Assembly (NCBI GenBank): GCA_949840915.1
Contig: CATKXY010000004.1
Coordinates: 97,979 to 161,978 of the forward strand
Direction: 5' to 3'
DNA from: an uncultured Lachnospiraceae bacterium
GTDB taxonomy: Bacteria > Bacillota > Clostridia > Lachnospirales > Lachnospiraceae
Length of the DNA stretch: 64,000 nt
Shown here: positions 9,265 to 13,143 of the stretch, in pieces
Numbering within the stretch: the stretch's first letter is position 1
How the letters are laid out: each line of letters starts with the position of its first letter
Made by a program: the position numbers and the translations under genes
The notes under the pieces: model-generated
Told to the model about the DNA's origin: nothing
Database searches by the model: none
Seen by the model: only the letters and a program-made list of their open reading frames with translations

Positions 9265-9293
9265 ATTATACATACAGCGGTATATTTTGTCAA
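9265..9293 (-). promoter_or_regulatory. Consensus sigma-A promoter of yceD-rpmF
   Basis: Reverse strand TTGACA (9288-9293), 17-bp spacer and TATAAT (9265-9270), an exact consensus match. Predicted start of transcription is near 9258. It sits between palindromic element 1 and yceD. Confidence 0.85.
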
Positions 9294-9317
9294 TATCCAA
9301 ATTACAAAATTCAGTCT

Positions 9318-9610
9318 TTAAACAATGTTATTGCTGCTCAGCCAAATCCGGGCAGAAGGTATCGGGATGGAGTTTGCGCCTGGGTACGGTTGAGTGTTTT
9401 CTAACAGTGCGGATATAAAATCCTGCAATCTACGGGCCGGCACTAAGATGCATCCATGCATCGTAGTGCCTGAAATGCGCATCCGTGCGCATTTCTCCCT
9501 GGTCTCTAAACCGCACTATAAGAAAACACGCCAACCTTTACCAATGCCGCAAACTCCATCCCGATACCTCTTGCCCTGACACCGGACGATTCAGCAATAA
9601 AGATGTTTAA
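9318..9610 (+). repeat. Palindromic element 1 (long inverted-repeat element, core in + orientation)
   Basis: A stretch of about 290 bp that folds on itself. The outer arms pair over a long distance: TTAAACA..TTATTGCTG at 9318-9336 with 9592-9610, and GGGCAGAAGGTATCGGGATG (9350-9369) with its near-perfect complement at 9557-9576. Inside is a 132-bp core (9396-9527) bounded by GTTTTCTAACAGTGCGG and CCGCACTATAAGAAAAC. The core holds two strong hairpins: GGCACTA..TAGTGCC at 9439-9470 and GAAATGCGCA..TGCGCATTTC at 9472-9495. The core recurs in reverse at 9738-9869. No credible gene lies inside. It could be a MITE-like element or a structured RNA; I do not recognise a named family. Confidence 0.85.
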
Positions 9611-9674
9611 CATATGCTTTGAGTCTGAATGCTGCACCGCATAGATCCTTTTGAGTTTCCGGCAATGTGGAGCT

Positions 9675-9930
9675 ATTCAACGGATGTTGACAGCGGGAGA
9701 CAGGGCGGATGCTGCAGACATTGGCAGAGCTTGGTACGTTTTCTTATCGTGCGGTTCGGAGAGCAGGGAGAAATGCGCAAGGATGCGCATTTCAGGCACT
9801 ACGATGCATGGATGCATCTTAGTGCCGGCCCGTAGATTGCAGGATTCTATATCCGCACTGTTAGAAAACACCCAAGCTCCGGCGCAGACTGCAGAATCCG
9901 CCCTGTCTCCCGCTGTCTGCGCCGGTTGAA
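9675..9930 (-). repeat. Palindromic element 2 (same core, inverted, with different arms)
   Basis: The second copy has its core at 9738-9869 on the reverse strand, 132 bp long and differing from element 1 at about six positions (roughly 95% identity). Its outer arms are unrelated in sequence to those of element 1 but again complement each other: GACAGCGGGAGACAGGGCGGA (9689-9709) pairs exactly with 9897-9917. Weaker pairing reaches TTCAACGG (9675) and CCGGTTGAA (9922-9930). It ends 3 bp from the luxC stop codon, so it lies in the 3' tail of the trp-lux transcript and may act as its terminator. Confidence 0.85.
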
Positions 9931-9933
9931 CCG

Positions 9934-11136
9934 CTACTCGTTCTGCTCTATGTCTACCACGCGCACATATCTGCGCAGAGCGTATTCGCCGTCATGGGCC
10001 TCACCTATGAAGGTGTCCGACATGCTCCCCGCCCGCATGATGCGCGTCAGGCCGCAGGCTGCCAGTATATCCGTGAGTCCGGCCCGCCTTTCCCCAGAGC
10101 AGATCAGTCCGGCAGTCTGCAGCATCCCTTTGTGCCTGCGAAGCTGTTCCATCAAGCGGCCCCGGGGCAGCCGCTTGACCAGGCAGTTCCCAAACAGATA
10201 AGAGCACTCTAATGCGCTGTCTTTCATAGCCGTAAGAGAGCAGCCGCGGCCGTACCACACCCGACGTCCTGTTTTGGAAGATTTTGCATCAAATATTTTG
10301 TCAAGCTCGTCGCTGTAGCGGCGCAGGGAGAGTTCTGCTCTTGTTCCCACCGTATCCTGCCCGGTTTGCGCATATTTGTCCGCAGCTCTCTGCAGATATG
10401 GCAGAAATTCCCGGCAAAAAGCGTAGAGATCATCCATATCCTCCGTGTCGATATAAATGACCTGGCAGGAGCTGCAGAGCAATTGCTTCGTTTTGACAAT
10501 ATGCTCCGCCAGCGCCTCCAACTCCCGCTCCTTGTCCTCATAGCCTGACAGATAGGCAAAACCAAGCTTATGCCCCCACTCGATAAGCTTTGCTCCGGGA
10601 GCTGCAAGGCGGCGTACCGCCCGCACTGCCTCATCGCCGCCCCACACCACAATGCCGTCGCTCATATCCGCCATTCGCCGCATGGCCTCCACATCCTCCG
10701 AGGGAGTATCAAATACATACAGATAGGGCGAAAGGCCCGGCTCTATCTTAAGCAGCTCCAGAAGGATTTCCACGGAGAGGCCCCTATCCGCCTGAGGAAG
10801 CTTCAAAATATTGACATTCCCCGTAAGCAGGCCCTCCAGAACACTGTATACGGGCAGACCGTCCATATTGCCCGCCGCAATGTGAAACAGGGTGCCCAGA
10901 GGCATGATCCGTGTCCGGATCCTTCCCTGAAACCCGCTTTGCTCCAAGGCTTTGCCGCCGAGCTCCGACTGTAATCTATACTCCAGATGCTCCCTCTTTA
11001 AAAGCGCTGCGGCCTGTTCAATCTGCTCTCGCAGGTTCTCAGAGCCCAATAGTCCCGAGTCCGCCAGTTCACCGATCCGCTTGTCAAATCCTCCCGCAAG
11101 AATTTTGTCCCGAAGCACTGCCGCCGCAGCGATCAC
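9934..11136 (-). CDS. LuxC-family acyl-CoA/acyl-protein reductase
   Basis: Reduces an activated fatty acyl group (acyl-CoA or acyl enzyme) to an aldehyde with NADPH, in the aldehyde dehydrogenase fold. In 400 residues it shows the nucleotide-binding region HIAAGNMDGLPVYSVLEGL (about 85-103) and the catalytic cysteine in LLCSSCQVIYID (C221). The family usually has C-S-x-P-Q here; this one has cysteine in place of proline. It starts with GTG at 11136 overlapping the luxE stop (GTGA), so the two are coupled. It is the last gene of the trp run. No luciferase (luxAB) is present, so the product is presumably used for something other than light. Confidence 0.82.
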   Translation of the reverse strand: MIAAAAVLRDKILAGGFDKRIGELADSGLLGSENLREQIEQAAALLKREHLEYRLQSELGGKALEQSGFQGRIRTRIMPLGTLFHIAAGNMDGLPVYSVLEGLLTGNVNILKLPQADRGLSVEILLELLKIEPGLSPYLYVFDTPSEDVEAMRRMADMSDGIVVWGGDEAVRAVRRLAAPGAKLIEWGHKLGFAYLSGYEDKERELEALAEHIVKTKQLLCSSCQVIYIDTEDMDDLYAFCREFLPYLQRAADKYAQTGQDTVGTRAELSLRRYSDELDKIFDAKSSKTGRRVWYGRGCSLTAMKDSALECSYLFGNCLVKRLPRGRLMEQLRRHKGMLQTAGLICSGERRAGLTDILAACGLTRIMRAGSMSDTFIGEAHDGEYALRRYVRVVDIEQNE

Positions 11137-12323
11137 TGTCTCCGGCAGAAGTCTCTTCCCCGCTCTGGTCCTGTTGAGCCCGTTAGCAGCTCCGCCGCAC
11201 CCGCCGCGCAGGTCTTAATATCCTTTAATCCCACTCTACCGATCACCTCCAGATAAGGCGCAGTCAATCCGCAGCCGCACTCGCTTCCCGGATGCAGTAC
11301 ACCCAGATCGTCCGTCATCACACTGAGAACGGGCGTCGCTTTCACCATGGGCGTCAGGAGATTTACCAGCCCGGTCCGGCCCATGGGAAGCGGCTCCAGC
11401 GTATCTACATCTCTGATCAGTACGCGGCTGTATACCGGAACATGGAAATGATGTCTCTCACAGTCACAATAGAGAATCGGATGTTCCACCGCTCCGAAAA
11501 ACTCAATGATATTCTCCTCATCCACGTCCAATACCTTCTTTGCCAGCCGGTATAGTTCTTCCTTTTCCACCTGCTCTTTGTAAAACTGTTTCCAGCCGCC
11601 GCCAAGCATGATTTTGGAACCTTCCTTTAATTTAAGAGCAATGCCTCGTTCCTCCATCTGTCTGAGCAGGAAATAGGTATAGGACGGAAATCCCATAAAG
11701 CGTACCGGAAATGCAGCCCCAAAAGCATGGCCCGAAGAGTTCCTGCCTTGGGAGAATCTTTTGAGCGCACGGATGATTCCTTCCAGATCAGGTTCGTATC
11801 CGTGCCCGCTCTCATTGTATTTTAATGCGTAGGTGCGGCTGAGTGCAGGAGAAAACAGGGTAGCTCCAAACGCCGTCTTGGTCACGGCCGTCTGATTGCC
11901 TCTGTGCGGTTTGTAGCCCATCACAATATAATGAGCGGGCCGCAGAGAAAACACGCCCCTCCAGCTTCCGATTTTAAGTACCATCTTCAGCCCGCACCAC
12001 AGATCGCCAAATGCAAACCCGATTCTGCTGACTCGCCCGCTGGTCCCCGAGGAGGTTGCCTGCAGAATCATCCTTCTCTCAGGAACGGAAAACAGTCTGC
12101 GCCGTTTAAAATTCACTGTGGGAATAAAGGGAAGTCTTCCAAGCTCCTCCGTCGTCTTAAGACTCCCCGGATGAAACCGGAAATGCCTGCACAGTCTGCG
12201 ATAGGGCAGACAATTTTTATATTGGAAGCGGCAGTTCTCCCTCATTGCCTGCACAAAGCACTCCTCCGTTCCCTCAATGTCAAAGGGATCCTTGGCAGAA
12301 AACAGTTTTTTTCGTTTTTCCAT
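11133..12323 (-). CDS. LuxE-family acyl-protein synthetase
   Basis: Adenylate-forming enzyme that activates a fatty acid and passes it, through a cysteine, to the LuxC reductase. Visible family features are the glycine/serine-rich ATP-binding motif ATSSGTSG, the ENIIEFFGAVEHP region and the hinge-like GCGLTAPYLEVIGR near the C-terminus. The start is taken at the ATG at 12323 (MEKRKK), with GGAGAG upstream; the open frame extends to 12344. The 5' end lies inside trpA (about 44 bp overlap), so it is translated from the same mRNA. The native acyl substrate is unknown. Confidence 0.82.
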   Translation of the reverse strand: MEKRKKLFSAKDPFDIEGTEECFVQAMRENCRFQYKNCLPYRRLCRHFRFHPGSLKTTEELGRLPFIPTVNFKRRRLFSVPERRMILQATSSGTSGRVSRIGFAFGDLWCGLKMVLKIGSWRGVFSLRPAHYIVMGYKPHRGNQTAVTKTAFGATLFSPALSRTYALKYNESGHGYEPDLEGIIRALKRFSQGRNSSGHAFGAAFPVRFMGFPSYTYFLLRQMEERGIALKLKEGSKIMLGGGWKQFYKEQVEKEELYRLAKKVLDVDEENIIEFFGAVEHPILYCDCERHHFHVPVYSRVLIRDVDTLEPLPMGRTGLVNLLTPMVKATPVLSVMTDDLGVLHPGSECGCGLTAPYLEVIGRVGLKDIKTCAAGAAELLTGSTGPERGRDFCRRQ

Positions 12324-13143
12324 AGGAAAGACTCTCCACAGCATTCTTCATACTCCTGACATATTCATAAATCTGCTGCCCCGCCTGTGCGCCGGACGCA
12401 GCAATGATTTTGACAATGGCGCTTCCTACGATGGCGCCGTCCGAAATGGCAGCCATTCTTTTTGCCTGTTCCGGTGTGCTGATACCGAAACCGATGGCAC
12501 AGGGTGTGCCCGTCACCTGGCGGATGCTCCTCACAATGGCCTCCAGATCCGTGTTGATCTCATTTCTCACTCCTGTGACGCCCATGGAGCTCACCACATA
12601 GATGAATCCGTGCGCTTCCTTTGCAATGGACTGAATCCTCTCCTGCGAGGTGGGGGCGATCATGGAAATCACATGCACATTGCGGGCCGCCGCAGGCACT
12701 TGAACCTCCTCCCGCTCCTCATAGGGCAGATCGGGAATGATCACCGCGCCTACACCCAATTCTTCACATTTTGAAAAGAACCGTTCATACCCATAATGAA
12801 AGATCGGATTTAAGTATGTCATAAACGCCAGTGGAATCTCCGATCTCTCCCGCACCCTCCGTACAATGTCAAAGACACCGTCCGTGGTCATGCCGCCCTG
12901 CAGCGCACGGATATTGGCGTCCTGGATCACCGTGCCCTCCGCCGTCGGATCAGAGAAGGGAATGCCGATCTCGACCAAATCCGCTCCCGCCCGCTCCATC
13001 TCCAGAATAAACTCTACGGTGCTGTCCGCACCGGGATCTCCCGCCGTCAAAAATCCGATAAACGCCTTGTGACCGGATGCGGAAAACATCCGATCCACTG
13101 TGTTCTCTACACCTTTTTTCTGAATTATAGCTCTGTCAGTCAT
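12280..13143 (-). CDS. trpA: Tryptophan synthase alpha subunit
   Basis: Cleaves indole-3-glycerol phosphate to indole and glyceraldehyde 3-phosphate and passes indole to TrpB. The motifs [11 protein letters not shown] and [15 protein letters not shown] carry the catalytic Glu and Asp; the phosphate loop GFGISTPEQ is also present. At 287 residues it is slightly longer than usual, with extra residues at both ends (C-terminal [12 protein letters not shown]). It overlaps the trpB stop by 8 bp and runs into luxE. Confidence 0.96.

Follow-up and report, generated by a model that had tools for sequence, protein, structure and literature searches.

Two long palindromes in the window (the whole 64,000-nucleotide stretch of DNA analyzed here) are copies of a dispersed element centered on the Rfam family RF01731 (TwoAYGGAY). 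On balance, and with modest confidence, we favor a reading in which this element spreads as a non-autonomous MITE and its hairpins, if transcribed, are predicted to bind CsrA. The window comes from a genome of the genus Acetatifactor (G000; 2.6 Mb, 84.6% complete).

The two copies lie in inverted orientation (Table 1), and base checks agreed with what a sequence-only reading had reported of their layout. The cores (9396-9527 on the plus strand and 9738-9869 on the minus strand) are 132 bp each and align without gaps, with exactly 6 differences where about six had been counted; the likeness stretches over 157 bp at 92% identity. Within each copy the outer arms are complementary, as claimed, at 91% (outer) and 84% (outermost) in copy A and at 76% in copy B, which includes the exact 21-bp stretch, and each core has the two further hairpins described. 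Folding energies of the two copies lie 15.5 and 9.7 standard deviations under those of shuffled sequences (60 mononucleotide shuffles each). The copies measure 279 to 293 bp and hold no transposase gene; open reading frames of 54 to 92 amino acids cross the elements (ORF list only) and were given no weight, because they traverse the palindromes. A promoter-like TTGG(T/C)A-18-TAT(A/C)GT is present within both copies, and a perfect TTGACA-17-TATAAT match for a yceD-rpmF-plsX-like operon lies on the minus strand at 9265-9293, 25 bp outside copy A. Two minus-strand genes at 9934-12344 resemble acyl-CoA reductase and acyl-protein synthetase (LuxC/LuxE-like, translations read only) and adjoin trpA/trpB-like genes.

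Table 1. Features of the two element copies in the window
Feature	Position	Strand	Basis
Element copy A, whole palindrome (arms and core)	9318..9610	-	Arm search, folding, Rfam match strand
Copy A core, Rfam RF01731 TwoAYGGAY, 88.5 bits	9381..9543	-	Rfam covariance model
Copy A first core hairpin, loop CACGGATG at 9480-9487	9472..9495	-	Sequence and folding
Copy A second core hairpin, loop CATGGATG at 9451-9458	9439..9470	-	Sequence and folding
Copy A outer arm, partner 9548-9579	9347..9378		Arm search
Copy A outer arm, partner 9347-9378	9548..9579		Arm search
Copy A outermost arm, partner 9592-9610	9318..9336		Arm search
Copy A outermost arm, partner 9318-9336	9592..9610		Arm search
Element copy B, whole palindrome; ends at the LuxC-like gene's stop codon	9664..9942	+	ORF list, arm search, folding
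Copy B core, Rfam RF01731 TwoAYGGAY, 74.5 bits	9722..9884	+	Rfam covariance model
Copy B first core hairpin, loop CAAGGATG at 9778-9785	9770..9793	+	Arm search and folding
Copy B second core hairpin, loop CATGGATG at 9807-9814	9795..9826	+	Sequence and folding
Copy B outer arm, partner 9872-9942; holds the 21-bp stretch 9689-9709, exact reverse complement of 9897-9917	9664..9734		Arm search, base check
Copy B outer arm, partner 9664-9734; holds 9897-9917	9872..9942		Arm search, base check

The sequence-only reading knew no named family that fits, but Rfam has one: both window cores match the RF01731 model over its full length (gathering cut-off, 43 bits). Rfam files RF01731 as type Cis-reg, in the same clan as CsrB (CL00106). 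As the accessible part of the original description has it (Weinberg et al. 2010, PMC2864571), the family has two hairpins with GGA loops, and the window cores share these and match end to end. Unlike the model, the element extends 55 to 75 bp or more past it on each side in most copies, adds terminal repeats and target duplications in the genome G048, and has the spread and site choice of a mobile element. Mobility is not mentioned in the passages on TwoAYGGAY that the open-licence literature offered us.

Copies also occur beyond the window. G000 holds 12 full-length copies, two of which form another inverted pair, on contig C26. Among 61 genomes of the genus the family is present in 16: seven have a single copy, and the other nine have between 6 and at least 38 (38 candidates were scored per genome, hence a lower bound). 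In the closed genome G006 there are 30. In a sample of the phylum, matches at E <= 0.001 came from 51 of 398 genomes (34 over the cut-off) and 41 of 267 genera, again a lower bound with 6 candidates scored per genome. A local inverted duplication is ruled out by the 12 copies in the one genome and the matches across the phylum sample. For further analysis, 115 of 168 counted copies were taken (G000, 12/12; G006, 30/30; G007, 5/7; G008, 5/6; G010, 12/13; G044, 11/18; G048, 17/38; G054, 8/19; G060, 8/18; and seven singles).

With crude ORF calling, the neighboring genes are tandem for 71 of 108 classified copies, convergent for 27 and divergent for 10; 5 of the 115 cores fall inside a long ORF. 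The downstream gene is on the strand of the element in 44 of the 108 and on the opposite strand in 64, by the same calling. This placing is unlike that of a leader element, and a consistent same-strand position upstream of a gene, as in cis-regulation, was not found. The seven single-copy loci had no common neighbor and no evident transposase in the translations read. Copies in G044 (L103, contig C2) and G039 (L033, contig C93) adjoin ParA/ParB-like and DegU-like genes (translations read), and G044 has three copies within about 3 kb near such genes. Regarding a phage or plasmid origin, the window pair gave no blastn match in phage and plasmid collections, one core pattern had 0 matches in viral contigs, and the end pattern matched once in each of 47 contigs, which was taken as chance.

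Evidence of movement comes mainly from G048, the nearest relative of G000 (95% at rpmF-yceD), where copies end in terminal inverted repeats, GTAACAGTTCAGCCT. Of 29 copies examined from G000 and G048, 13 (12 from G048, 1 from G000) match the repeat at 9 or more of 15 positions at both ends and so were testable for duplication of the target. Their 8-bp flanks agree at 8, 8, 7, 7, 7, 7, 6, 5, 5, 3, 2, 2 and 1 of 8 bases; target duplications at 7 to 8 of 8 bases were thus found in 6 of 13 copies (6 of the 12 from G048), versus 0 of 156 mispaired controls. The exact end pattern was seen, among the loci examined, in element copies and in one unrelated-looking place. A single copy of the 12 in G000 reaches 9/15 at both ends, and none of the 12 has a target duplication; the window copies (L011 and L005) agree at 3/8 and 2/8 bases at guessed ends, their true ends not being recognizable. 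These two are old members whose ends have no target duplication. Outside G048 and G006, none of the other genomes scanned gave a clear target duplication, and no transposase with these ends was found among the loci examined.

Occupied and unoccupied sites, which the sequence-only reading had suggested looking for, were seen between secY and adk. The one copy of G048 there follows the secY terminator and precedes the adk promoter; in G000 the same site holds an inverted pair. Among 80 named adk loci the family is present at one, the G048 contig; the secY end is readable upstream in 74 of the 80, and the gap is 72 to 308 bp in 70 of those 74. In the unoccupied sites read, the only palindrome at the insertion point is the adjoining secY terminator. 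Genome G114, without the element, has CTTTTTGA once, and G048 has CTTTTTGA on one side of its copy and CTTTTTGG on the other (by eye), a match of 6/8 at the end fixed by the repeat. At the counterpart of the window site in G048 (L123/L152, contig C44) no element was seen: homology ends at window position 9309 and is followed by a MATE-type gene and then a LuxC-like gene, so that the site is rearranged and not a clean unoccupied one. The place of the two elements in G000 (9309-9945) is taken in G048 by a MATE-type transporter gene, flanked by the yceD-like and LuxC-like genes, a difference due to gene loss or rearrangement at the elements. All four close pairs seen (on C4 and C26 in G000, and on C128 and C152 in G048) are ordered minus then plus.

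The same core occurs in another setting in G006, where 24 of 30 copies lie inside units of 463 to 696 bp with quite different terminal repeats and TA ends (TA-AATGGAAAGTTAGT), preceded by T at the left end in 23 of 24 and followed by A at the right end in 20 of 24. Because the ends in G048 and G006 differ, the core rides in two kinds of unit. The TA-ended units (L025, L047, L050-L070 and others) are modular, with hairpin-rich blocks beside the core exchanged between copies. The element is short, multi-copy and without a transposase gene, and in G048 has shared terminal inverted repeats and target duplication. It is, or was, likely a MITE that jumps as a small transposon, on account of the G048 repeats, the 8-bp duplications and the presence of the family at only one of the secY-adk loci.

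The Correia/NEMIS elements of Neisseria are bacterial MITEs whose transcripts can form a long hairpin. Our element resembles them in being short and intergenic, without a gene of its own, with terminal inverted repeats and target duplication, and in its long hairpin fold; it differs in having a conserved CsrA-type core in units with different terminal repeats (G048 and G006) and arms that change sequence while pairing persists.

Within the core, the GGA loops are kept on one strand. Of 115 cores, 113 have the motif CA-N-GGA-N-G on the model strand and 3 have it on the opposite strand; two CANGGANG loops are present in 59 of the cores, one in 54 and none in 2. As AYGGAY, the loops are ACGGAT and ATGGAT in copy A and ATGGAT and AAGGAT in copy B, with one departure from Y. 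Binding of CsrA by TwoAYGGAY was proposed by Gardner and Eldai, in the part of PMC4333381 available to us. The SELEX consensus for CsrA is RUACARGGAUGU with GGA in a hairpin loop (PMC7652899, available in part); judged by sequence, the element loops are close to it and would have the form of CsrA sites, whereas the element stems are long and very stable and most SELEX ligands had no more than four contiguous pairs (same source). A CsrA gene was found in 49 of 51 carriers (counted by joining the element list with the CsrA list; G342 and G396 are the exceptions) and in 236 of 347 non-carriers (Fisher test, 4e-6), an association that supports a link between element and CsrA without proving it, because species are not independent and some carriers must have been missed. 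Of the carriers over the cut-off outside G000, 32 of 33 have CsrA, and G000 holds one csrA. Within the genus CsrA does not track the element (9/10 carriers, 23/27 non-carriers). The one-strand motif count and the CsrA enrichment in carriers are new relative to the earlier proposal, and the open-licence literature yielded nothing on an element that joins CsrA with MITEs.

Titration of CsrA is our best guess for what the element may do. CsrB has many short hairpins and one gene per genome. With CsrB/RsmY-type sRNAs (clan CL00106) the element shares GGA in hairpin loops, usually in pairs, a host with CsrA and a common clan; it differs in having one to two GGA loops per copy, very long stems and up to dozens of mobile copies, and in being a predicted binder. 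A MITE and nothing more, whose conserved loops are read as folded DNA by a transposition protein or otherwise serve movement, would have no role for CsrA. Such an element would fit the repeats and duplications in G048, the TA-ended units in G006, the lack of a preferred strand relative to genes (the 44 and 64 copies above) and the lack of wobble excess in the arms described below, but we think it rather unlikely, given loops kept on one strand in CsrA-site form, a core that recurs with two kinds of ends, which a transposase-specific signal does not explain, and the enrichment of CsrA in carriers.

Outside the core, pairing outlasts sequence. Over 31 to 55 bp in seven multi-copy genomes, an arm matches its own partner at 0.78 to 0.87 and the arm of another copy at 0.42 to 0.63; the conserved center inside replaced yet still paired arms, first noted for the window pair, thus recurs. 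The arms had been called unrelated between the window copies, which is right insofar as they are more diverged than the core, but across the 12 copies of G000 they are recognizably homologous (similarity between copies 0.65-0.66 in arms, 0.82 in cores). In G044 arms reach 0.39 to 0.45 across copies (shuffled, 0.32) and 0.87 with their own partner. In G010 (L023, L037, L045 and L077-L085) the arms have a conserved inner word, AAGCTGTCA, and outer ends rich in GC; the stretch of roughly 20 bp between these is near-unrelated between copies yet self-complementary in each. At one orthologous site in G000 and G048 (L001/L093), 9 positions changed on both sides with pairing kept, 14 are broken in one copy and 7 lost pairing in both copies or changed in another way; the corresponding counts for the two window copies are 16, 20 and 3. 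Two orthologous copies in G054 and G060 are near-identical, arms included, with flanks at 88 to 90%, so arm turnover is not universal across sites. Among 29 loci from other genera (one at a contig edge), arms beat all 50 shuffles in 26 of 28, the exceptions being L198 and L205.

Arms kept for the fold of one RNA should have more G-U than A-C mismatches. Outside G006 the summed arm mismatches are 244:233 (G-U:A-C), and in other genera 55:59, against 56:8 for RNase P RNA of the genus; the SAM riboswitch, at 3:6, has too few to serve as a control (G-U disallowed in both folds). The arms of G006, mostly from near-identical copies, give 86:27, which runs against a DNA-level reading, and pooling all arms, those of G006 among them, with duplicates collapsed gives 317:248. 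Cores give 50:43 with G-U disallowed in the fold, and the GGA hairpins alone (21:11) and the inner stem (5:2) are not significant. A single alignment of 99 cores from all genomes gives 132:116, with several columns misaligned, and within-genome alignments summed over eight genomes give 111:48, from a G-U-allowed fold that favors G-U columns. Equal counts would not be expected of a structure maintained as RNA, and as there is no G-U excess outside G006, arm pairing looks maintained regardless of strand, as DNA; G006 goes the other way. Two causes could account for this: one arm is copied over its partner in DNA, or each of the two strands has to be able to fold. Selection on structure, as first suggested, stands in that arms are replaced yet paired; it does not equal selection on RNA.

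These counts bear on whether the family is a fixed RNA gene or cis-regulatory RNA, as in Rfam, which looks mobile through duplication of copies. The Rfam entry, the covariation published in PMC7657543 and PMC11701678 (available in part) and the G054/G060 orthologs, where the element is better conserved than its flanks, are in keeping with that. It nevertheless appears improbable in view of the target duplications and unoccupied sites, a copy number from 0 to at least 38 within one genus, a downstream gene strand that is unrelated and the lack of wobble excess outside G006.

REP/BIME elements are intergenic palindromes, often in inverted pairs, associated with RAYT transposases. Our element is likewise an intergenic palindrome found in inverted pairs, but has target duplications (G048), a conserved center and a variable outside. 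An element of the REP/IS200-IS605 kind, mobilized as single-strand DNA by a Y1 (RAYT-type) transposase that recognizes imperfect hairpins, would match the imperfect intergenic hairpins and the minus-then-plus order of all four close pairs; it is very unlikely, since REP/RAYT movement leaves no target duplication, and the 8-bp duplications and terminal repeats of G048 and the TA ends of G006 point to a double-strand mechanism.

That the core inserts into, or copies, pre-existing palindromes, as the sequence-only reading had also proposed, is hardly credible, though less firmly so for G044 and G010: the near-unrelated yet well-paired arms of G044 would suit it, but duplications fall outside the arms, and the arms belong to the element and are not captured palindromes, because the unoccupied sites read (those at secY-adk) have no such palindrome bar the secY terminator and arms co-change at one site between species.

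In the favored reading of a MITE with CsrA-binding hairpins, a transposase encoded elsewhere would act on the terminal repeats, and the arms of the palindrome would be matched at the DNA level, by arm-to-arm copying or through a need of each strand to fold. A neighboring promoter or the element's own would drive synthesis of a hairpin RNA, whose GGA loops may capture CsrA, either titrating the regulator or recruiting it to the host transcript. More tentatively, these could be transposon-borne CsrA decoys: hairpin cargo of at least two unrelated MITE backbones, in dozens of copies, that resets the level of CsrA in gut Clostridia, with arms palindromic as DNA and free in sequence.

An orphan RNA family of 2010, its center so far catalogued as an RNA of obscure function, would then prove to be a mobile element, and this identity would explain the patchy, multi-copy distribution and the lack of a fixed gene neighbor. 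The arms are a clean case of how a long palindrome stays complementary during sequence turnover. In Bacillus subtilis the protein FliW antagonizes CsrA; whether FliW and sRNAs act together in any species was undetermined according to a 2020 review (PMC7652899, available in part). If the CsrA part is true, a transposon would carry decoys for a global regulator, and clostridial RNA antagonists of CsrA would fill a gap beside FliW.
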